A stretch of 9,519 bases of DNA from positions 1 to 9,519 of the forward strand of contig JAKSCF010000471.1 in assembly GCA_022360735.1 (NCBI GenBank), given 5' to 3'. Shown in pieces: positions 1-9,519 of the stretch (position 1 is its first letter; each line of letters opens with the position of its first letter). This DNA is from Clostridia bacterium. Its GTDB lineage: Bacteria; Bacillota_A; Clostridia; Peptostreptococcales; JAAYPU01. The notes under the pieces were generated by a model. The model was not told the origin of the DNA. It did not search any database and saw only the letters and a program-made list of their open reading frames with translations. Made by a program: the position numbers and the translations under genes.

Positions 1-1368
1 AATATTGAGTTGGCCGAAGATATTAGGCAACGAGAGATTCTTCAAAGTGAACTAACAAAAATGTTGAATAAATACACAGCGATATTTGCCAATACCAAGG
101 ATTGTATCTTTATCGTTGACTTTAGTGATAAACATGTAGGTCATCTAATTGAGCAGAATGTGAAAGCTTTAGAGGTATTTGGTTACCCAGATGAAGTCAT
201 TTCGACTTTGACACTGGAACAATTGGATTTAGATCATGATAAAGAAGACTTAGAAGAGCGATTTGGTTCTTTAGATATAGGAAATGCTACTCTATATGAG
301 ACAGTGTTGGTTAGCCAAAAAGGAGTTAAAGTCCCTGTGGAAGCACAGTGTTCTGTCTTTGAACTTGATGGTAACCGACGTTTGCTTTATATAGCCAGAG
401 ATATATCTCAAAGAAAACAAGAAGAACAGATATTAATTCGTAGTGAAAGACGTTTTATGAGTATTGTCAATGAATTGGCAACACGAATGAAAGATGAAAG
501 TTATGAAGTGGATACAGTTAGCTATGACTCCACAACTTTGCTCCATCAGAAACTTGAACAGATCAATATCCAATTAGAGCATATGTTTAAGAAAGAACTT
601 GATGAAAATCGACGTAAAGAAAGCCTTATGTTAATGCAATCCAAACATGCGGCTATGGGTGAGATGATTGGTAATATAGCCCATCAATGGAGACAACCTC
701 TGAATACATTGAATTTTATCTTAAACAATATGATGGATGAACTAAGGGACTGTCATATTGATGAAGCGTCAAGGCGGTTTCTTGATAAAAAGTTTGAAAA
801 AGGCTTTAATATCATCAACAAAATGTCAGATACTATTGATGATTTTAGGCATTTCTTCAAACCCCAGGATTGTAAGAAGGTATTTAATCTTAATGAAACC
901 ATTGAGTTGGCATTGCATTTGTTTGAAGAGAGAATCAAGCTATATGGTATTAAAGTTGAAGTATTGAACCATGAACCTGTTATGTGCTATGGATATTCAA
1001 GCCACTTGGCACAGGTGCTGCTAAATATGATCAATAATTCTATTGATGCGCATAAAATAAGAGATGACAAGATGGGTGCAAAATATTCAGATAAAAAAAT
1101 AGAAATCAATTACTCTGTAAATGGAGGCACGTTGAAAATCACTTTGTTCGACAATGCAGGAGGTATTGATGAGGAAGTAATAGAACGTATTTTTGATCCG
1201 TATTTTACGACAAAAGACATGCAAAATGGGACAGGGCTTGGTCTATACATGTCAAAAGCAATCATTGAAAAACACTTTGGCGGAACACTTGAAGTGATGA
1301 ACAAGAATGAAGGTGCTTTTTTTACAATGACATTGAAGCATTTTTTGGAGGAAGAAAATGAAAGATAA
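1..1368 (+). CDS. PAS-domain sensor histidine kinase (5' end missing)
   Basis: Cytoplasmic-looking sensor kinase that probably phosphorylates the response regulator encoded just downstream. The frame is open to base 1, so the gene is cut by the window edge. A TTG at base 10 is only the first possible start codon inside the window, with no ribosome binding site. Of the 455 visible residues, about 22-140 look like a PAS domain (start YTAIFANTKDCIFIVD, end YIARDISQRKQEE), followed by a helical linker. The H-box is of the IAHQWRQPLN type with the phospho-accepting His at visible residue 228. The N-box is LLNMINNSIDAH (Asn346), the G1 box has Asp384 (DNAGG), and the G2 box is GTGLGL at 411-415. 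No membrane segment is visible, though one could lie upstream. The last bases overlap the next gene by 11. The kinase assignment is secure; its signal is unknown. Confidence 0.93.
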   Translation, partial: NIELAEDIRQREILQSELTKMLNKYTAIFANTKDCIFIVDFSDKHVGHLIEQNVKALEVFGYPDEVISTLTLEQLDLDHDKEDLEERFGSLDIGNATLYETVLVSQKGVKVPVEAQCSVFELDGNRRLLYIARDISQRKQEEQILIRSERRFMSIVNELATRMKDESYEVDTVSYDSTTLLHQKLEQINIQLEHMFKKELDENRRKESLMLMQSKHAAMGEMIGNIAHQWRQPLNTLNFILNNMMDELRDCHIDEASRRFLDKKFEKGFNIINKMSDTIDDFRHFFKPQDCKKVFNLNETIELALHLFEERIKLYGIKVEVLNHEPVMCYGYSSHLAQVLLNMINNSIDAHKIRDDKMGAKYSDKKIEINYSVNGGTLKITLFDNAGGIDEEVIERIFDPYFTTKDMQNGTGLGLYMSKAIIEKHFGGTLEVMNKNEGAFFTMTLKHFLEEENER

Positions 1369-2167
1369 TGTATTGTTAAACTTAAAAGTCCTATATATAG
1401 AAGATGATGACGATACTAGAGAAGAGCTGGCACATTTTCTAAAGAAAAGAGTTGGCAAATTGATAATTGCTAAAAACGGTGAAGAAGGATTAAAAAAGTA
1501 CGAACAAAATAAACCGAATATAATTATTACAGATTCTCGGATGCCGGTTATGGATGGCATTACTATGAGTGCTAAAATTCGTGAAATAGATAAAGAAGTA
1601 GCTATTATAGTGACCACTGCGTTTTCAGATGTGGAAGTGGTGATTAAAGCCATTGATATGGGTGTGAATAAGTATATTCTTAAACCGGTGGATGTTACTG
1701 AGCTTATGGATACAATCAAAGATTGTGCCTATAAATTATTGATAGAAGAGGATGATAGCCTTGTTGTAGGCAATCAGATGTTACTAGATGCTGAAGAGAA
1801 GAAAGAACTGGAGAAGGGCATCCAAAATAAATTTGCTATGTTCTTAAAAGACAAAACCGGTAAAGGCCCGAAATTTGTGAAAAGCTTTTTGAGGCTGGAT
1901 ATTGTAGAGATTGAAGCTGCTGATGCTTTTACCAAATATGAGACTGCCATGTTAGACAGAGGTAAGAATGAGCGTATTATAAGATTTGTTAGAGAATCTT
2001 TTTACCACAGTTATCGAAAAGATATAGAAACCTTTGTAGGCGAGATATTATCAATGCCTTGTTCATTAGAATCTATAGGTGTAGATACCTATAGAAAGAA
2101 AGATAAGATACTGCTAAGGATATCGGATAAAGCCCAGGGCGATCAATCTGATTCTTCCGGTGGATAG
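1358..2167 (+). CDS. Response regulator with C-terminal DUF2294/MpsC-like domain
   Basis: Receiver protein, 269 aa, with a GGAGG ribosome binding site at 1347-1351, 6 bases before the ATG. Residues about 8-125 form a canonical receiver: acidic pocket EDDDD at 15-19, phospho-acceptor Asp59 in TDSRMPVMDG, Thr87, and Lys109 in LKPVD. No helix-turn-helix follows. Residues about 145-256 instead resemble the DUF2294 family (the family containing MpsC): a GKGP motif at 168-171, an arginine-rich helix (RIIRFVRESF), then an FVGEILSMP segment and a final IGVDTYRKKDKILLRI strand. That assignment rests on pattern recognition. The C-terminal tail is polar (QGDQSDSSGG). The 11-base overlap with the kinase gene implies coupled translation and a cognate pair. 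Output is probably not direct DNA binding; a protein or membrane target is more plausible, but this is inference. Confidence 0.9.
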   Translation: MKDNVLLNLKVLYIEDDDDTREELAHFLKKRVGKLIIAKNGEEGLKKYEQNKPNIIITDSRMPVMDGITMSAKIREIDKEVAIIVTTAFSDVEVVIKAIDMGVNKYILKPVDVTELMDTIKDCAYKLLIEEDDSLVVGNQMLLDAEEKKELEKGIQNKFAMFLKDKTGKGPKFVKSFLRLDIVEIEAADAFTKYETAMLDRGKNERIIRFVRESFYHSYRKDIETFVGEILSMPCSLESIGVDTYRKKDKILLRISDKAQGDQSDSSGG

Positions 2168-2241
2168 TCTTAATATGGGATTTGCAGGATTTAAATTACT
2201 CGAAAGAATTGCTGGTTTTGTATATTAATCTTGAAAATATA

Positions 2242-2270
2242 TTGACAATTCATTAGTATGATGTTACAGT
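2242..2270 (+). promoter_or_regulatory. Candidate sigma-A promoter for leader RNA/citrate lyase operon
   Basis: TTGACA (2242-2247, perfect -35) is followed after 17 bases by TACAGT (2265-2270, 4 of 6 to TATAAT). Transcription would begin near 2274-2277, at the start of the structured leader. A competing -10, TATGAT at 2257-2262 (5 of 6), pairs only with TTGAAA at 2231 at a long 20-base spacing. Either would place the following hairpins and terminator at the 5' end of the transcript. Confidence 0.6.
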
Positions 2271-2273
2271 TAA

Positions 2274-2413
2274 GGCAACATAGGCTTATTGAAGATATGG
2301 ACTATGTTCAATAAGACAGACGATTATATGATTAGAGCTTGCTGTTGCCAAGAAAGATATTAATATGCTTTTGAGGACCAGTACAAAGTATTAACTTTGT
2401 ACTGGTCTTTTTT
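2274..2413 (+). ncRNA. Candidate structured leader or small RNA upstream of citC
   Basis: This stretch follows a promoter and ends in a terminator, with no credible gene inside. GGCAACA at 2274-2280 pairs perfectly with TGTTGCC at 2343-2349 (7 bp). Nested inside, CTTATTGAA at 2285-2293 pairs perfectly with TTCAATAAG at 2307-2315 (9 bp); after a G-G mismatch a further 3 bp can form, leaving a TGGAC loop. A single-stranded A-rich region then leads into the terminator hairpin. The layout resembles a riboswitch-like aptamer plus expression platform, or a free-standing small RNA of about 140 nt. I do not recognise a known riboswitch consensus (no T-box, c-di-GMP, purine, tetrahydrofolate or glycine signature), and no obvious antiterminator pairing was found. 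Confidence 0.45.
2374..2413 (+). terminator. Rho-independent terminator before citC
   Basis: A perfect 14-bp stem (2376-2389 with 2394-2407) with a 4-base ATTA loop is followed by six T (2408-2413). A G-T and an A-T pair can extend the stem outward to 16 bp. It lies 51 bases upstream of the preferred citC start. It therefore ends either the upstream two-component transcript and the leader RNA, or acts as an attenuator for the citrate lyase operon. Confidence 0.88.
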
Positions 2414-2452
2414 ATGTTATTTTAGAACCTTTAATAAAATTGGTTGGTAAAT

Positions 2453-2457
2453 GGGAG
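2453..2457 (+). promoter_or_regulatory. Ribosome binding site that decides the citC start
   Basis: GGGAG lies 7 bases before a GTG codon at 2465. The longer alternative start (TTG at 2444) has no Shine-Dalgarno sequence upstream, and an ATG at 2451 opens only a five-codon frame. The GTG is therefore preferred. Confidence 0.65.
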
Positions 2458-2464
2458 TGAGGCA

Positions 2465-3502
2465 GTGAAAGAGTTACAGATTAAAGATGTTTTTCTAAGC
2501 ATTGATGAAGAGGCTATGGAAGTAAAAAGACTTCTGGCAACAGAAGGTCTTGAACTTGATCCTTTTGTGGAGAAAATTGTTGGTATGTATGATGGAGAGA
2601 AGCTGGTTGCAACCGGCTCTGTTGCCGGAAATACCATACGAAGTATTTGCGTGGATCACGATTATCGTGGTCAGTCAGCCATTAATAAACTCATGACCTA
2701 TCTTATTGACTATTTATACCGAGTCGGTAAGAATCATATTTTCATTTATTCGAAACCGGAGAACGGTAAATCCTTCGAATATTTAGGGTTTTATCCATTA
2801 ATTACAACAGATAGAGTGCTGTTGCTTGACAGCAAGCGAAATGGCATCCAAGAATTTTTAGAAAACATTACGACAAAAGATAAAGAGAATAAGATTGTCG
2901 GAAGCATTGTAATGAATGGTAATCCATTTACTTTAGGGCATAAATATCTTGTTGAAAAAGCGTTGGAATCTTGTGATGAACTTTATCTTTTTGTTGTCTG
3001 GGAGCAGAAATCTCTTTTTCCTAATGATGTGAGATTCAGGCTGATTGAGGAAGGTCTTTCTGAATATAAACAGGTCCATGTGGTTAAAGGGGAAGATTAT
3101 ATTATTTCATCGGCAACGTTCCCAACCTATTTTTTAAAAGATGATGACGATACAGATGTGGAGCATGCAAAACTTGATCTTCTGATATTTAGAGACAAAA
3201 TCGCACCATATCTTGGCATAACAAAACGATTTGTAGGGGATGAAAAAATTAGTATTACTACAAGAAAATACAATGAACAGATGAAAGAGATTCTTGATGG
3301 GAAAGGACTTGATGTGGTTGAGATTCCCAGAAAAGAAAAAAGCGGAAAAATAATCAGCGCATCCTATGTAAGAGACTACATCCGTCATGACCGGTGGAAA
3401 GAAGTGAAAGAAATTGTTCCCATAACGACCTATGAATTTCTTCAGTCAGAAGAAGCGAAACCCATCATAGAAAAAATCAAAAGATCAAATACCAGACATT
3501 AA
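2465..3502 (+). CDS. citC: [Citrate (pro-3S)-lyase] ligase
   Basis: Activates citrate lyase by acetylating, with ATP and acetate, the thiol of the prosthetic group on the CitD acyl carrier subunit. With the GTG start the protein has 345 aa, close to the usual length of about 340-350. Residues about 35-120 form a GNAT-like N-terminal domain (EKLVATGSVAGNTIRSICVD, then YRGQSAINKLM). Residues about 143-330 form the nucleotidyltransferase domain with NPFTLGH at 153-159, the ATP-binding (T/H)xGH motif ending at His159, and a C-terminal IISASYVR at 296-303. It is the first gene of citCDEFX; citD follows after 18 bases. An in-frame TTG at 2444 would add seven residues but lacks a ribosome binding site. 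Its own promoter is unclear: either the promoter at 2242 with terminator read-through, or a weak TAAAAT (2435-2440). Confidence 0.95.
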   Translation: MKELQIKDVFLSIDEEAMEVKRLLATEGLELDPFVEKIVGMYDGEKLVATGSVAGNTIRSICVDHDYRGQSAINKLMTYLIDYLYRVGKNHIFIYSKPENGKSFEYLGFYPLITTDRVLLLDSKRNGIQEFLENITTKDKENKIVGSIVMNGNPFTLGHKYLVEKALESCDELYLFVVWEQKSLFPNDVRFRLIEEGLSEYKQVHVVKGEDYIISSATFPTYFLKDDDDTDVEHAKLDLLIFRDKIAPYLGITKRFVGDEKISITTRKYNEQMKEILDGKGLDVVEIPRKEKSGKIISASYVRDYIRHDRWKEVKEIVPITTYEFLQSEEAKPIIEKIKRSNTRH

Positions 3503-3520
3503 CAATGAAGAGGTGAAGGA

Positions 3521-3817
3521 ATGAGGATTATTAAAAGTTCTATAGCAGGTACATTAGAATCCAGTGATATCCAAATCAGGATTGAGCCTGGACAAAAAGG
3601 CAAAATCAATATTCGTTTACAGAGTGTCGTTGAAAAACAATTTGGGAATCAAATCAGGGAACTGATTAGAGAGGAATTAACAAAACTAGGTGTTTCCCAG
3701 TGTGAAGTGACTGCTATCGATAAAGGTGCCCTTGACTTTGCTATTGTGGCTAGATTGCAAAGTGCAGCTTATCTGGGTGCAGGAATTGATAAGAATATTG
3801 CTTGGGAGGGAATGTAA
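3521..3817 (+). CDS. citD: Citrate lyase acyl carrier protein (gamma subunit)
   Basis: Small acyl carrier subunit, 98 aa, that carries the 2'-(5''-phosphoribosyl)-3'-dephospho-CoA arm of citrate lyase. The family signature AGTLESSD is at residues 9-16. Ser14 occupies the position known as the attachment site in the enterobacterial proteins. VEKQFG and DKGALDFAI/VARL are also conserved, and the C-terminus has the family's AWE ending. A purine-rich ribosome binding site (GAGGTGAAGGA) directly precedes the ATG. The stop codon shares one base with the citE start (TAATG), so translation is coupled, which fits subunits needed in equal amounts. The modification requires CitX (present) and CitG (not in the window). 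Confidence 0.96.
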   Translation: MRIIKSSIAGTLESSDIQIRIEPGQKGKINIRLQSVVEKQFGNQIRELIREELTKLGVSQCEVTAIDKGALDFAIVARLQSAAYLGAGIDKNIAWEGM

Positions 3818-4689
3818 TGGATAAGTTAAGAAGAACCATGTTGTATGTCCCTGGGAATAATCCCGGCATGTTAAGAGATGCAGGTATCTATGGAGCAGAT
3901 TCTCTAATGTTTGATCTAGAAGATTCTATAGCCTTAACTGAAAAAGTAAGTGCCAGATTTATGGTGCACCATGCCATCGGTTCAATGGATTATGGTGACA
4001 CAGAAATCGTAGTAAGAATAAATTCACTGGAGTCCGGTTTAGGCCGGGAAGATATCCATGCTGTGGTTTCAGCAGGTGTGGATGTCATACGTCTTCCAAA
4101 AACTGAGACACCTCAAAACATTAAGGATGTTGAAGAAATTATTGATTCGGCTGAGCGTCAATACAATCGCCCTGTGGGGAGTACAAAGATAATGGCAGCA
4201 GTGGAAAGCCCTCTTGGAGTTATGAATGCTTATGCGATTGCAACAGCGTCACCCCGTATTATTGGCATAGCCATTGGAGCTGAAGACTTCGTAACCAACA
4301 TGTACACAAAGCGTAGTGATGAGGGTGCCGAACTAATGGTAGCCAGAAGCCAGATTCTAATGGCCGCTAGAGCTGCAAAGATATATGCCATTGATACGGT
4401 TTATTCTGATGTGGACAACGAAGAAGGATTGAGACATGAAGTTGAACAGATAAAGCAACTTGGCTTTGACGGAAAATCTATTATTAATCCAAGGCAAGTA
4501 AACATCGTACATGATGTGTTTGCTCCATCGAAAGAAGAGGTCATGAAAGCAAAAAGAATTCAGCAGGCAGCCAATGAAGCCCTTGAAAAAGGCCTGGGTG
4601 TTATTTCTCTTGATGGTAAGATGATTGATAAACCTATTGTAGACAGGGCTGAACGTTTGTTGTCATTAGCCATGGCAACAGAATCATAG
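3817..4689 (+). CDS. citE: Citrate lyase beta subunit (citryl-ACP lyase)
   Basis: Cleaves citryl-ACP to acetyl-ACP and oxaloacetate, Mg2+-dependent, in the cytoplasmic citrate lyase complex. With the ATG at 3817 it has 290 aa, normal for CitE. The HpcH/HpaI aldolase-like fold is shown by RTMLYVPGNNPGML near the N-terminus, MFDLEDSI at 31-38, Arg67 in VRINSL, Glu130 in AAVESPLGV and Asp157 in GAEDFVTNM; these match the substrate- and metal-binding residues of the family. The start is fixed by GGGAGGG at 3804-3810, 6 bases upstream, and by the TAATG overlap with citD. An upstream in-frame TTG at 3802 lies before that ribosome binding site and is rejected. citF follows after 12 bases. Confidence 0.96.
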   Translation: MDKLRRTMLYVPGNNPGMLRDAGIYGADSLMFDLEDSIALTEKVSARFMVHHAIGSMDYGDTEIVVRINSLESGLGREDIHAVVSAGVDVIRLPKTETPQNIKDVEEIIDSAERQYNRPVGSTKIMAAVESPLGVMNAYAIATASPRIIGIAIGAEDFVTNMYTKRSDEGAELMVARSQILMAARAAKIYAIDTVYSDVDNEEGLRHEVEQIKQLGFDGKSIINPRQVNIVHDVFAPSKEEVMKAKRIQQAANEALEKGLGVISLDGKMIDKPIVDRAERLLSLAMATES

Positions 4690-4701
4690 GAGGTAGAGAA
4701 A

Positions 4702-6255
4702 ATGATCAATACATTAGGCAGAGACGTTTCTGACGAATTAATGAAAAAGATGAATAAACAACTATATTCAGGACCATTTGAAGTACATCCCGATATGAGA
4801 TTTAATGGTAGAAAAATTGCCTGCGTTGAGCCGTGTCAATCCAGTAAATTACTTCAGAGTATTGATGAGGCCATAGATAAAACAGGTCTAACAGACGGTA
4901 TGACCATTTCTTTCCATCATCACTATAGATCAGGTGATAAAGTCATCAATATGGTTATGGATCGAATCGCAAAAAAAGGTATTAAAGATTTATACCTTGC
5001 TGCCAGTTCACTTATTGATGTGCATAAACCATTGATAGAGCATATTAAAAACGGCGTCATTACCGGGATTACAACCAGTGGGCTAAGAGGTGAATTAGCA
5101 CAGGCCATATCTTGCGGCTTGATGGAAAAACCTATAATTTTTAGAAGCCATGGGGGTCGTGCAAGAGCCATTGAAACAGGTGAACTATGTATTGATGTCG
5201 CTTTTATGGGTGTTCCTTCATCGGATGAATACGGTAATGTATCCGGTGAAAGGGGTAAAACCATTTGTGGTGCACTTGGCTATGCGAGAACAGACTCACG
5301 ACATGCAGACCAGGTGGTTGTTATCACAGATACGTTAGCTGAGTTTCCAAATATCCCTGCAAGCATTAAACAAGTTGATGTGGATTACGTTGTTGTGGTT
5401 GATGAAATCGGTGATCCAAATGGTATCTCAACAGGAGCAACACGATTCACAAAGAATCCAAAAGAATTACTAATAGCTGAAAAAGCCGCTAAAGTGATTA
5501 TCAACAGTGGTTATTTTCGAGATGGTTTTTCTTTTCAAACCGGTTCAGGCGGATCATCACTGGCGGTAACAAGGTTCCTTAGAAAAGCTATGATTCAATA
5601 TGATATTAAGGCAAAATTCGCGCTGGGTGGTATTACAGAAACTATGGTAAGACTTCATGAAGAAGGTTTAATCAAACACTTATACGACGTACAAAGTTTT
5701 GACTTATATGCAGCCAACTCTTTTAAAAATAATCGTATGCACCACGAAATTGAAGCAGGTTACTATGCAAATCCATTTACAAGAGGATGTATTGCTAACA
5801 AATTGGATGTGGTTATTCTTAGTGCCCTTGAAATCGATGTGAATTTTAATGTTAACGTTATGACCGGTTCCGATGGTTATATCCGTGGCGCTTCAGGCGG
5901 GCACTCAGACACTGCAGCATCGGCAAAGATGACAGTGGTTGTTGTACCACTTATGAGAGGGCGAACACCCTCTGTGGTTAAAAATGTTCAAACTATTATT
6001 ACACCTGGCGAGACGGTGGATGTATTGGTTACAGACCGAGGCGTAGCTGTGAATCCACTTAGGAAAGACTTGATTGAGAAGTTAACCAAAGCAGGGGTAA
6101 AAATGGTAGATATCAATGACTTGCAAAAACAAGTTCGACAACTGGTAGGAGAGCCAAACCCAATAGAGTTTGAAGAAAATATTGTTGGTGTTATTGAATA
6201 TCGTGACGGTACAATCATTGACGTGGTAAAGCAAGTTAAGGGAGTGATGGCTTGA
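4702..6255 (+). CDS. citF: Citrate lyase alpha subunit (citrate:acetyl-ACP transferase)
   Basis: Exchanges the acetyl group on CitD for citrate, giving citryl-ACP and acetate, the first half of the citrate lyase cycle. It has 517 aa, the usual full length. The sequence is CitF-like throughout: GPFEVHPDMRFNGRK near the N-terminus, DGMTISFHHHYRSGD, the glycine-rich ITTSGLRGELAQAIS, SHGGRARAIETGE, FMGVPSSDEYGNVSG, TGSGGSSLAVTRFLRK, FALGGITETMVRLHEEG and IRGASGGHSDTAASAK. A strong AGGAGG ribosome binding site precedes the ATG. The stop codon overlaps the citX start by four bases (TTGA). No truncation or missing region is seen. Together with citD and citE it encodes a complete catalytic complex. 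Confidence 0.97.
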   Translation: MINTLGRDVSDELMKKMNKQLYSGPFEVHPDMRFNGRKIACVEPCQSSKLLQSIDEAIDKTGLTDGMTISFHHHYRSGDKVINMVMDRIAKKGIKDLYLAASSLIDVHKPLIEHIKNGVITGITTSGLRGELAQAISCGLMEKPIIFRSHGGRARAIETGELCIDVAFMGVPSSDEYGNVSGERGKTICGALGYARTDSRHADQVVVITDTLAEFPNIPASIKQVDVDYVVVVDEIGDPNGISTGATRFTKNPKELLIAEKAAKVIINSGYFRDGFSFQTGSGGSSLAVTRFLRKAMIQYDIKAKFALGGITETMVRLHEEGLIKHLYDVQSFDLYAANSFKNNRMHHEIEAGYYANPFTRGCIANKLDVVILSALEIDVNFNVNVMTGSDGYIRGASGGHSDTAASAKMTVVVVPLMRGRTPSVVKNVQTIITPGETVDVLVTDRGVAVNPLRKDLIEKLTKAGVKMVDINDLQKQVRQLVGEPNPIEFEENIVGVIEYRDGTIIDVVKQVKGVMA

Positions 6256-6764
6256 GCAACCTGACAAAGGCTGAATTATTGGCTGCTAGGTCAAAAAGAA
6301 AAGATAGCCAAGAACAAATTTTAAGTCAATTTGGAGATAATTTAGTTTCTATGACGATGAATATTCCGGGACTTGAAAAATCCAATGAGAAGATAGTAAA
6401 AGCCTTCACTAAAGCTTTTTTTGGTTTAATTGAGGTAATGAAATTTGAAGGCTACCATATCAACCATGTTGAGTTTAATGACGTAACAAGTGGACCTGTA
6501 GGATTTATTAGTTGTAAAGGGGATTGTTATGAATTAAAGCGCCTTTTGGTTTTATATGAAGAGTCTACCACTATTGGTAGACTGCTTGATGTGGATATCA
6601 TCCATATGAAATATGGACAGATTACAAGAAGTGACTTAGCGTTTGAACCAAGAAAGTGTTTTCTTTGTGATGAGGAAGCTAATTTTTGTCGAAGAAATCA
6701 GACCCATACATTGGGTGAGTTGATGGAATATGTTAATGAGAGACTGAAGGTTTATAACAGTTAG
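6252..6764 (+). CDS. citX: Apo-citrate lyase phosphoribosyl-dephospho-CoA transferase
   Basis: Transfers the phosphoribosyl-dephospho-CoA group from its triphosphate precursor to the serine of CitD (holo-citrate lyase synthase). It has 170 aa. The signature stretch is GRLLDVDI at 109-116, with Cys136, Cys139 and Cys146 in KCFLCDEEANFCRR and a C-terminal THTLGELMEYV. The TTG start overlaps the citF stop; GGGAG at 6240-6244 is 7 bases upstream, and the next in-frame Met is 33 residues in, so TTG is well supported. Unlike the CitXG fusions of some bacteria, this protein stops after the CitX domain, and citG is not seen in the window. No terminator hairpin follows, so some read-through into the next gene is possible. 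Confidence 0.94.
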   Translation: MSNLTKAELLAARSKRKDSQEQILSQFGDNLVSMTMNIPGLEKSNEKIVKAFTKAFFGLIEVMKFEGYHINHVEFNDVTSGPVGFISCKGDCYELKRLLVLYEESTTIGRLLDVDIIHMKYGQITRSDLAFEPRKCFLCDEEANFCRRNQTHTLGELMEYVNERLKVYNS

Positions 6765-6776
6765 AATTTTCATATA

Positions 6777-6824
6777 CTTTTCACATATTTATACCAATCT
6801 TTTACCATAATCTTTTCCTATAAT
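6777..6824 (+). promoter_or_regulatory. Promoter with repeated CTTTT boxes upstream of exported protein
   Basis: A perfect -10 (TATAAT, 6819-6824) lacks a recognisable TTGACA at normal spacing. The upstream region carries three CTTTT boxes (6777-6781, 6799-6803, 6812-6816); the last two sit in similar contexts (ACCAATCTTTT and ACCATAATCTTTT). The first two are 22 bases apart, about two helical turns. A weak -35 plus helically phased direct repeats is typical of promoters activated by OmpR-family regulators, and such a regulator is encoded downstream. TCTTTT at 6798-6803 is 15 bases before the -10. Operator function is inferred. Confidence 0.55.
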
Positions 6825-6865
6825 GAGCTTGTAAAAACAAATTAACTCAAAAAGGAGAGATTAAA

Positions 6866-7351
6866 ATGAAAAAGTTTTTAAGTCTAATGTTAGTTATTGT
6901 TTTGGTTTTAAGTTCGGCGGTGGTTGCTTTTGCAGCAGAACCCCAGGAAGGTGAGAAGAAAGAAAGGATTAATATTGCCAACGAATTTAATGAAGAGCTG
7001 CACCAAATTATTGACCTAAGAATTGAAAAAAATGATCTCAATACAGAAATACTTACAATAAAAGATGGAATGATTGATGCGAAAGCTGAAAAAGACGAAT
7101 TAAGTGAAGCAGTAAAAGAAGCTGTAAAAGGAATAAGAGAAGAATTAAAAGGTATTAATGGTGAGGTGAAAGCGTTAAGCGAATCAATAAGAGAAACAAA
7201 AGCAGCGTTTAAAGAGGCAATAAAAGCTCAAGACATGGATGAAGCAGAGGCATTATTAGAGCAAGAGATCCAATGCCATGAAACCGTGAATGACTATTTA
7301 GAAGACAAGATTGCTTTACTCAATGAGATTCTGGAGACTGTTACAGAATAA
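6866..7351 (+). CDS. Exported acidic coiled-coil protein of unknown function
   Basis: I do not recognise a family. The 161-aa protein starts at an ATG behind a good ribosome binding site (AAAGGAGAG). Residues 1-23 are a clear signal peptide: a KK N-terminus, a hydrophobic core LSLMLVIVLVLSSAVVAF, and likely Sec signal-peptidase cleavage at AFA/AE. There is no lipobox cysteine and no LPxTG-type anchor, so it is probably secreted or loosely wall-associated. The mature part is almost entirely helical, rich in Glu, Lys and Ala, and probably coiled coil. A weak internal repeat (LSEAVKEAVK at 79-88, LSESIRETKA at 104-113) is spaced 25 residues apart. There is one cysteine (Cys137). It has its own promoter, a strong hairpin behind it, and an envelope-type two-component system next door. 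A role as a ligand, chaperone or accessory of that sensor is inference. Confidence 0.85.
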   Translation: MKKFLSLMLVIVLVLSSAVVAFAAEPQEGEKKERINIANEFNEELHQIIDLRIEKNDLNTEILTIKDGMIDAKAEKDELSEAVKEAVKGIREELKGINGEVKALSESIRETKAAFKEAIKAQDMDEAEALLEQEIQCHETVNDYLEDKIALLNEILETVTE

Positions 7352-7379
7352 ATGGATGTTTTCACTTGAAAAAAAGGGA

Positions 7380-7426
7380 TAGCTGGTATCCTGTATAGTT
7401 CCTATACAGGATACCAGCTAGATATT
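7380..7426 (+). terminator. 19-bp perfect hairpin between exported protein and regulator
   Basis: Bases 7380-7398 pair perfectly with 7402-7420, leaving a 3-base TTC loop. A seven-A run lies just upstream and a T-rich tract (7425-7429, then 7437-7440) downstream, as in a rho-independent, possibly bidirectional, terminator. The five-T tail begins four bases after the stem, so termination may be incomplete. It separates the exported-protein transcript from the regulator-kinase transcript. Confidence 0.8.
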
Positions 7427-7434
7427 TTTCTATC

Positions 7435-7461
7435 TCTTTTATTGCTGTAATTTGATATAAT
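7435..7461 (+). promoter_or_regulatory. Extended -10 promoter of the regulator-kinase operon, with TCTTTT box
   Basis: TGATATAAT (7453-7461) is an extended -10 with a perfect TATAAT, which compensates for a poor -35. TCTTTT (7435-7440) ends 15 bases before TATAAT, the same arrangement as in the promoter of the exported-protein gene. Transcription would start near 7468, only about 13 bases before the first possible GTG start. Autoregulation by the encoded regulator is a plausible inference. Confidence 0.6.
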
Positions 7462-7480
7462 TTGTTTAGATCGTTATTGG

Positions 7481-8182
7481 GTGGATAGGGAAGCAGGTGG
7501 TGTAATTGAAGCATATTTTGTAATTGATGATGAGAGAAACATATGTGATTTGATCAAAAAATATTTAGTGAAAGAAGGCTATTTAGTGACTCTCTTTAAT
7601 GATGCCGGCAGCGCTTACGAGGAGATAAAACGGTTAAAGCCGGATTTAATCGTTCTAGACATCATGATGGCCGGTATGACCGGATTAGAACTCTGTCAAA
7701 AGATTAGAATAGATAATGAAGTGCCCATCATTTTTGTATCGGCACGAGATGAAGAATTGGATAGGATATTGGGTCTTGAATTAGGTGGAGACGATTATTT
7801 GACCAAACCTTTCAGTCCAAGAGAGTTAACGGTTAGGATCAAGAACATATTCAAGAGACTGGAAAAAAATCAAAGTATCCGTCAGCAAAGCATGGTCTTA
7901 GACGATTTACATATTTATCCTTCAAGAAGGTATATTGAAAAAGAAGGAGAAGAGTTGAAGTTTACCGCAAAGGAATATGAAGTTTTAGAATTTATGGCAA
8001 AAAATAAGAATCAACCTTTTACCAGAGAACAGCTGATTCAGAAAATATGGGGCTATGATTATATTGGAGAAGAGCGCATCATAGATGATATTATTAAAAG
8101 AATTAGAAAAAAGTTATCAACAGCAAACTCTAATGTCAAAATTGTAACAGTTTGGGGGTACGGATACAGAATTGATGGTTAA
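7481..8182 (+). CDS. OmpR/PhoB-family response regulator
   Basis: DNA-binding response regulator of a two-component system with the downstream kinase. Counting from the GTG at 7481 (233 aa), residues about 11-125 are the receiver: acidic pair Asp16-Asp17, phospho-acceptor Asp60 in LDIMMAGMTG (Ala where the family usually has Pro), Ser87 in FVSARDEE, Lys109 in LTKPF. Residues about 140-232 form the winged helix: LKFTAKEYEVLEFMAKN, then the recognition region ERIIDDIIKRIRKKL and the final WGYGYRIDG. The start is uncertain. The GTG has no ribosome binding site, whereas AGGTGG at 7495-7500 precedes an ATT at 7505 that would begin the protein with MEAYFVIDDE, the usual receiver N-terminus. The gene overlaps the kinase gene by 8 bases. 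Likely targets are the two TCTTTT promoters nearby. Confidence 0.94.
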   Translation: MDREAGGVIEAYFVIDDERNICDLIKKYLVKEGYLVTLFNDAGSAYEEIKRLKPDLIVLDIMMAGMTGLELCQKIRIDNEVPIIFVSARDEELDRILGLELGGDDYLTKPFSPRELTVRIKNIFKRLEKNQSIRQQSMVLDDLHIYPSRRYIEKEGEELKFTAKEYEVLEFMAKNKNQPFTREQLIQKIWGYDYIGEERIIDDIIKRIRKKLSTANSNVKIVTVWGYGYRIDG

Positions 8183-9519
8183 AATAAATATTCAGTCGAA
8201 GTTGTTTTTTACATATTTTATTATATTATGTGTATTTCTCATCATTTCAACGATGATGATATTTATAATTTCTGAAAATTTTTTAATAAATCAAACCAGA
8301 AAATCTCTAAGAGAAGAAGCTGATTTTATTGCAAGTGAGATTGAGCAAATTTCATTTCAACGGGGTAATATATCAGAAAAAATAAAGGAAAGAAAGCGGC
8401 TTAAGGTATACGGAAATCTTATTGATGAGCAAATTATTGTATTAGACAACAATAAAAAAATAATTTATACCAATTTACCTGATGAAGAAATGAAAAAGGC
8501 CAGAAAAATTTCACAAGAAAAAGATGACAAAGAGTTAATCTTGGTACGAGTAAGAGTATACGACAGTCAACAAAACGTAAAAGGTCATGTGATATTATTT
8601 ACTAGATTAAATAATATCAATTATTTAAAGCAATTAATACGACAATCCCAATTATTGAGCTTTATAGTTGCAGGTGTTTTTTCGCTGATTATTGCTGCTT
8701 TTCTAAGCAGAAGTATTACAAAACCCCTGAAAAAGCTGACGCTGTTTATGAAAGGGTTTTCTTTATCCAAAAAGAAGCAGGATTTTAAATGTAATACAGG
8801 TGATGAAATTGAAAATTTGGCTCACTATTTTAATGAAATGACGGAAAAGATATATGAATACGACGAAAAGCAAAAGTCATTTTTACAGAATGCTTCTCAT
8901 GAGCTAAAAACGCCCTTGATGTCCATACAAGGTTATGCGGAAGCTATAAAAGATGGTGTTGTTGAAGAAGAAGAAATTCCAGGCAGTTTAAATATTATTA
9001 TAGATGAAAGTCAAAGGCTTAAGAGAATCGTTGATGAAATTATTTTTCTTACTAAAGTAGAGAATGTTGAAGAGATATTTGATTATAAAGAATATATGAT
9101 TCAAGATATAATCAGAGAGGTTATGGATAGTCTTAACATATTAGCCAATGAAAATAATATCAATATGACTCAAGACTTGCATGAAGATATAACCGGTTAT
9201 TTTGATAAGGATAAACTCATGCGTGCTTTTATCAATGTCATAGCCAATTGTATAAGATATGCTAAAAGTGATGTAAAAATAGAAGTTAAAGCTTCAGCTT
9301 CATTGATTAAAATTTTGATTCGTGATGATGGAAATGGATTTGAAGCCGGTGAAGCGGGTAAAATATTTGACAGATTTTATAAAGGTAAAAACGGAAGTAC
9401 AGGCTTAGGGCTTGCCATAACAAAAGCGGTTGTGGAAGGTCATGGCGGTAATATAAAGGCTAAAAATTCTGATGTAAAAGGTGCTTTGTTTGTGATTGCA
9501 TTACCTAAGCAAAAATTAA
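8175..9519 (+). CDS. Membrane sensor histidine kinase (3' end cut by window)
   Basis: Sensor kinase partner of the OmpR-type regulator; its ATG lies within the regulator's last codons, so translation is coupled. The frame stays open to the last base: 448 codons are visible and the kinase core is complete, so only a few C-terminal residues are missing. Residues about 10-33 are a first membrane helix (LFFTYFIILCVFLIIS), about 34-159 an extracytoplasmic sensing domain of about 125 residues, and 160-179 a second helix (LLSFIVAGVFSLIIAAFLS). A HAMP linker follows (SITKPLKKLTLFM to EIENLAHYFNEM). The H-box NASHELKTPL has His242. The N-box IANCIRYAK has Asn358. G1 is DDGNGF, the F-box FDRFYKG and G2 GSTGLGLAITKAVVEGHGG. 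The sensed signal is unknown; the exported protein two genes upstream is a candidate. Confidence 0.95.
   Translation, partial: MVKINIQSKLFFTYFIILCVFLIISTMMIFIISENFLINQTRKSLREEADFIASEIEQISFQRGNISEKIKERKRLKVYGNLIDEQIIVLDNNKKIIYTNLPDEEMKKARKISQEKDDKELILVRVRVYDSQQNVKGHVILFTRLNNINYLKQLIRQSQLLSFIVAGVFSLIIAAFLSRSITKPLKKLTLFMKGFSLSKKKQDFKCNTGDEIENLAHYFNEMTEKIYEYDEKQKSFLQNASHELKTPLMSIQGYAEAIKDGVVEEEEIPGSLNIIIDESQRLKRIVDEIIFLTKVENVEEIFDYKEYMIQDIIREVMDSLNILANENNINMTQDLHEDITGYFDKDKLMRAFINVIANCIRYAKSDVKIEVKASASLIKILIRDDGNGFEAGEAGKIFDRFYKGKNGSTGLGLAITKAVVEGHGGNIKAKNSDVKGALFVIALPKQKL

Follow-up and report, generated by a model that had tools for sequence, protein, structure and literature searches.

A leader RNA before the citrate lyase operon of a Clostridia bacterium as a probable antitermination target of an MpsC-type response regulator

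Why is a citrate lyase operon preceded by a structured leader that ends in a strong terminator, and what might let transcription pass? The question is raised by a stretch of 9,519 nucleotides from a Clostridia bacterium (GTDB lineage Bacteria; Bacillota_A; Clostridia; Peptostreptococcales; JAAYPU01; GenBank assembly GCA_022360735.1, contig JAKSCF010000471.1, positions 1 to 9,519 of the forward strand). In this stretch, which we call the window, the leader RNA lies between the genes of a two-component system and citC. We consider it likely that the leader is a transcription attenuator run by the two-component system whose genes lie immediately upstream, i.e., a case of two-component antitermination. 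The conserved pairing of a sensor and regulator with an RNA switch in the vicinity of genes for citrate, tricarboxylates and purines suggests signalling by read-through past a stop. The parts concerned are the following.

10..1368, + strand: sensor kinase HK1 (HATPase_c), truncated by the window start (open reading frame and Pfam)
1358..2167, + strand: response regulator with a C-terminal MpsC domain (PF10057), the proposed antiterminator protein (Pfam: Response_reg at residues 11-120, MpsC at 148-233)
2242..2270, + strand: candidate promoter TTGACA-17-TACAGT (consensus match only)
2274..2349, + strand: enclosing stem P0, 2274-2280 / 2343-2349, its 3' strand overlapping the antiterminator 5' strand
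2285..2315, + strand: nested 9-bp stem, 2285-2293 / 2307-2315, in the position of hairpin P1 of relatives; not in the minimum-energy fold
2340..2383, + strand: proposed antiterminator, 2340-2344 / 2379-2383 and 2348-2349 / 2375-2376, enclosing hairpin P3 at 2352-2372 (fold, and match to RNA model R2, see below)
2373..2413, + strand: intrinsic terminator, its 5' arm including the antiterminator 3' strand
2465..3502, + strand: citC, citrate lyase ligase, GTG start (open reading frame and Pfam)

The stems and the terminator that a first-pass annotation had read from the letters are correct. The 7-bp stem GGCAACA (2274-2280) / TGTTGCC (2343-2349) encloses the 9-bp stem CTTATTGAA (2285-2293) / TTCAATAAG (2307-2315), and the terminator stem at 2373-2410 has 17 pairs, the inner 14 perfectly Watson-Crick, and a loop of 4, with a T run to 2413, 51 bases before the GTG of citC at 2465. 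The promoter hexamers are present too (TTGACA at 2242-2247 and TACAGT at 2265-2270, 17 bases apart, with TG in front of the second; 10 of 12 positions match), as a consensus match only; promoter-like sites in the window number 37, with 36.6 expected from shuffles, and are thus in no excess over chance. The leader (2272-2416) folds at -49.1 as compared with -24.8 +/- 2.9 for shuffled sequences (z -8.47), and its terminator-free part (2272-2351) is also unusually stable (z -4.09); in neither case was any of 200 shuffles as good. The minimum-energy fold of 2272-2351 (-22.9) does not contain the nested stem, and the best fold with both P0 and the nested stem is close behind (-20.7, i.e., 2.2 kcal/mol weaker), so that the two folds compete. 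For the segment 2331-2384 the minimum-energy fold (-9.3) is an antiterminator around P3, the design found in relatives. The two stems that the annotation had named are both present, but the best conserved part is the hairpin at 2340-2383, which it had not listed. Its remark that the element fits no riboswitch consensus agrees with Rfam, where no family fits the window leader and no match at or near it reaches the gathering score.

The leader has counterparts before citC in other genomes. CitC was searched in 391, 22 and 297 genomes; contigs whose CitC is 97%, 88% and 78% identical to that of the window are on record. In a first set of 58 citC loci, 14 show directly before citC a strong terminator whose arm recurs (AAGGTCAGTAT or a near variant), which places the terminator-bearing leader before citrate lyase in a family. 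These leaders fall into set A (L041, L044, L045, L052, L054, L056), set B (L040, L046, L049, L050, L053, L058) and set C (L043, L060). Because the RNA model R1, built from set A, scores set B weakly (24.6 bits for L053, 14.0 for L049), membership of sets B and C was decided on position, terminator arm and fold. The set-A structure consists of P0, P1, an antiterminator helix and the inner hairpin P3; in the antiterminator helix the strand just 5' of P3 pairs with the 5' arm of the terminator. Changes on both sides of a pair are found at 13 of the 39 pairs of the whole structure in the six set-A leaders, versus 2-5 when the alignment is slid. When three leaders from before permease genes are added to these six, the antiterminator helix has both-side changes in 3 of 7 pairs and none in any slid control, and the whole antiterminator/P3 module in 5 of 16, versus 0-1 slid. 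The six set-B leaders, which have their own P1, show such changes in 5 of 19 pairs versus 0-3 slid, with one G-A mismatch excluded from the count; 71 of 500 shuffles reach 5 pairs, but none reaches the observed 10 cells. The annotation had made conservation and covariation in relatives the touchstone of its proposal, and the both-side changes in the six set-A and six set-B leaders bear it out for the family, these leaders rather than the window's own stems being what was checked.

Predicted folds agree with the covariation. In 29 of 30 segments of 72 bases the terminator arm pairs upstream across the inner hairpin, as we read the folds; the exceptions and weaker cases are L058, which has no upstream pairing, L045, which uses another register, set B with 3-6 pairs and the window with 2. 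Leader arms are paired upstream at 0.53, as compared with 0.39 for the 87 non-leader terminators in the regions fetched (p 0.0045); among the 22 leader entries are duplicates and two false ones from L196. The covariation in relatives supports an antiterminator hairpin that would capture the terminator 5' arm.

Three further features were seen in the citC neighbourhoods. In L044, L045, L052, L054 and L056, GAAAACGTTTTC-like palindromes stand before P1, just 3' of candidate promoters, and overlap P0; we take them to resemble the cre sites of catabolite repression. L016 and L021 have another hairpin in common (ATATGGACTGTA..TACAGTCCATAT), more than 100 bases before citC, and a clear c-di-GMP-I riboswitch (81 bits) occupies L050:71-155 on the minus strand.

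Leaders of this kind are not confined to citrate lyase operons. In the 297 genomes R1 recovered the six set-A leaders, plus weaker hits in front of purine-type permeases (L069, L070, L071); a second model, R2, added four more permease-type places (L113, L114, L115, L118), and the terminator-arm pattern, run in 17 genomes, gave leaders before prpF and tripartite-transporter genes in two of them (L104, L093). Pfam matches in one permease locus are Xan_ur_permease and xanthine-dehydrogenase-type subunits, and in one prpF locus PrpF. At L186, L210 and L212 the leader lies between an MpsC-type regulator and the next gene, in L186 a 2-hydroxycarboxylate transporter; R2 finds two of these three leaders, at 25.1 and 27.3 bits, and gives the L210 place 12.5 bits (E 3). 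A leader visible after the L211 regulator was kept out of the co-occurrence count below. The operon types with a leader are thus citC, citrate-transporter, purine-permease and prpF loci.

What these operons have in common besides the RNA is the response regulator. We fetched 60 of 83 distinct citC places (58 genomes) with up to 20 kb and scanned them with a profile of the regulator's C-terminal domain; second copies and weak or partial hits were mostly excluded. Where a leader stands directly before citC the regulator is present in 13 of 14 regions, and the fourteenth is a contig of only 4.9 kb, which leaves 13 of 13 testable; it is present in 6 of the 46 regions without a leader there, three of the six being L186, L210 and L212, which carry their leader elsewhere in the cluster. 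A recheck of these 46 found no family terminator before citC, with only 97 bases available at that point in L177. When a leader anywhere in the cluster is counted, the regulator occurs in 16 of 16 testable regions versus 3 of 43 others (p 9e-12, or 3e-11 minus four short contigs; Fisher values, which ignore kinship). An HK1-type kinase and an MpsC-type regulator also lie directly upstream of the leader in all seven permease loci and within the fetched region in both prpF loci. Between the end of the regulator gene and the terminator arm lie 146-225 bases in the window and in 12 further loci; in the 13 citC regions the regulator closes the cluster, far from the leader at the operon head, and gene order there differs from that of the window. 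A wider check with the domain profile in nine genomes returned 16 places, 8 already known, 6 new and 2 others. Two of the new ones (L237 and L238, with HK1 adjoining the regulator) have a leader of the family kind after the regulator, to judge from terminator and fold; the former is absent from the R2 list, and the latter scores 13.8 bits (E 1.2) with R2. The other four (L235, L236, L239, L240) have no classable leader.

All 28 regulators, the window's and 27 aligned relatives, match Response_reg and MpsC; none has an ANTAR output domain at E<=0.01, and their C-terminal domain matches no DNA-binding family in Pfam. This domain is predicted with confidence (predicted local distance difference test score, pLDDT, 94.5) as a helix, two strands, three helices and two strands. 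The kinases vary with the operon. dCache_1 is matched at E<=0.001 in 13 of 13 kinases of citC-leader loci (L160 and L169 just under the Pfam cut-off) and in the prpF-locus kinase of L156, and under the Pfam cut-off in three of four kinases of transporter-type loci; the kinases of permease loci have an NMT1/THI5-like domain in 7 of 7. The output is constant and the input varies with the substrate, the sensor domain of the kinase tracking the operon type.

Among the MpsC-type regulators found, those of L215, L216, L239 and L240 are of another subtype; a terminator with a different arm follows in L215, L216 and L240, and the leaders of L215 and L216 are doubtful. In L235 and L236 the regulator adjoins a permease of 461 residues with its own strong terminator in front.

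Does the window's own RNA belong to the family? R1, R2 and the motif score were all made without the window. With filters off, R1 ranks the window leader first over 2100-2600 (17.3 bits), and for R2 it is the top match of the entire window (15.6 bits, E 0.034), this match, at 2336-2383, falling exactly at the terminator before citC; the motif score also ranks it first. The gene context is that of the family: a strong terminator directly before the operon, and an HK1-type kinase and MpsC-type regulator in the cluster (10-2167), the terminator arm lying 208 bases past the regulator gene. We take the window RNA to be a divergent family member, a judgement that owes more to its gene context than to the RNA scores.

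In addition to the kinship that the Fisher values ignore, a number of observations weigh against this assignment or the larger proposal. With default filters R1 lists three chance places and not the window leader, and one of these, at 18.6 bits, exceeds the 17.3 bits of the leader; for R2 the next-best place reaches 13.6 bits, and 17 of 200 shuffled windows equal the window's motif score. The AU/AGA internal loop of the relatives' P1 was not seen in the window, and the upstream pairing of the window's terminator arm (0.38) is not above that of ordinary terminators (43 of 87 controls are as high). Sequestering of the antiterminator strand by the overlapping 3' strand of P0 is marked in the window only, and such competition is not general among family leaders. 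R2 at E<=2 omits the leaders of L043, L060, L093, L104 and L237 and of L225, the locus in the L211 genome, and misses that of L210 at the leader place. Six MpsC-type regulators (L215, L216, L235, L236, L239, L240) are without a clear leader, and the C-terminal domain is without a clear solved structural relative.

The proposed switch would work as follows. Without a signal, the terminator at 2373-2413 would form while P0 occupied the antiterminator strand, and citCDEFX would go unread. With a signal, possibly citrate, the kinase would activate the response regulator, presumably by phosphorylation, and the MpsC-type domain of the activated regulator would bind and hold the antiterminator hairpin at 2340-2383. 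The held hairpin would consume the terminator 5' arm, so that RNA polymerase could read into citC. Direct RNA binding by this domain, the direction of the switch and the role of P0 as competitor are what we infer.

The annotation had left the trigger open between a ligand and a protein. The protein is favoured because the leader co-occurs with one type of response regulator; the ligand fares less well. A riboswitch in which P0/P1 binds a small molecule and selects between antiterminator and terminator, the two-component system having another role, would account for a leader with a structured 5' part, antiterminator and terminator, and for the compensatory variation of P0 and P1 in set A and of P1 in set B. 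However, an antiterminator module common to citrate, tricarboxylate and purine operons does not sit easily with a single ligand, the citG-like gene in front of the L043 and L060 leaders seems to leave them no space for a separate 5' domain, and the regulator's presence is left unexplained; we regard this alternative as quite improbable. Most response regulators act by binding DNA, the main known RNA-acting class being those with ANTAR, and the regulator could act on promoter DNA, with the 9-bp inverted repeat (2285-2293 / 2307-2315, half-sites centred 22 bases apart, just past the candidate start) as operator and the leader as a separate control or the end of the kinase-regulator transcript. 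This is unlikely, given that the C-terminal domain matches MpsC and not a DNA-binding Pfam family, that a plain terminator would need no covarying antiterminator, and that the leader of citC loci stands at the operon head, distant from the regulator gene. The annotation's other suggestion, an independent small RNA ending at the terminator, fits a candidate promoter and strong terminator of its own, but relatives keep the element inside the linked operon or at its head, and an antiterminator is meaningful only in cis, which makes a small RNA very improbable. The annotation's interpretation is thus supported in part, and two-component antitermination is in our best reading the simplest account, the same kind of control as in ANTAR regulators with another protein domain and another RNA.

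Gene order in the window is kinase, MpsC-type regulator, leader, citC, citD, citE, citF, citX, a protein of 161 residues and a second regulator-kinase pair. The remaining genes of the operon are:

3521..3817, + strand: citD, acyl carrier protein (open reading frame and Pfam)
3817..4689, + strand: citE, beta subunit, ATG start at 3817, or possibly a longer form from TTG at 3802 (open reading frame and Pfam)
4702..6255, + strand: citF, alpha subunit (open reading frame and Pfam)
6252..6764, + strand: citX (open reading frame and Pfam)

The 161-residue protein (6866-7351), between citX and the second pair, has a signal-like N-terminus and no Pfam match; after its gene an inverted repeat of 19 perfect base pairs, with T runs on either strand (7380-7420), is a likely two-way terminator. 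The second pair (7481-9519), 3' of the citrate operon, comprises an OmpR-type regulator, whose closest named records are from Caldisalinibacter, Thermotalea and Crassaminicella, and a kinase with 40-45% identical relatives in 4 of 391 genomes of the class.

How does two-component antitermination at this leader relate to known systems? ANTAR regulators, among them NasR, AmiR and the response regulator EutV of Enterococcus faecalis, antiterminate leaders with an intrinsic terminator (PMC3369931, PMC8934654). A regulator that antiterminates at such a leader would be common to both; the output domain differs (MpsC in 28 of 28 here, ANTAR in none), and so does the RNA, a hairpin pair with six-base loops in ANTAR systems and a single antiterminator hairpin with an inner internal loop here. 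The two ANTAR-type hairpins (six-base loops, A first, G fourth) were not seen in the predicted folds, no ANTAR-site model having been run. In BglG/SacY/LicT systems, as described in PMC3369931, a protein holds one hairpin overlapping the terminator, the ribonucleic antiterminator (RAT) of 29-30 bases. The single overlapping hairpin is a likeness, but the hairpins here are of about 44-56 bases (compared by description, with no RAT model run), and the BglG-type protein is regulated by the phosphotransferase system whereas the linked protein here is a response regulator. Rfam riboswitches and T-boxes also have a 5' leader with a terminator/antiterminator choice; no Rfam family scored above chance for the leaders of L041, L049, L050, L056, L060, L069, L070 and L071, and the c-di-GMP-I riboswitch elsewhere in L050 was the sole clear match. 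MpsC of Staphylococcus aureus, termed hypothetical in PMC8552792, has the family PF10057 in common by name; in the regulators described here this domain is joined to a receiver domain.

We lean, somewhat less firmly than for the leader itself, towards the MpsC-type domain being an RNA-binding output domain, its regulators forming, alongside ANTAR, a second family of two-component antiterminators that has an antiterminator RNA of its own and is connected, through different sensor domains, to the catabolism of citrate, tricarboxylates and purines in Clostridia. The predicted RNA targets of about 50 bases are directly testable, as is the regulator, for which no membrane part is predicted within the region aligned. 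A second class of RNA-acting response regulators, if true, would assign a function to a hitherto uncharacterised domain and would explain the induction of citrate lyase and purine genes in these anaerobes.
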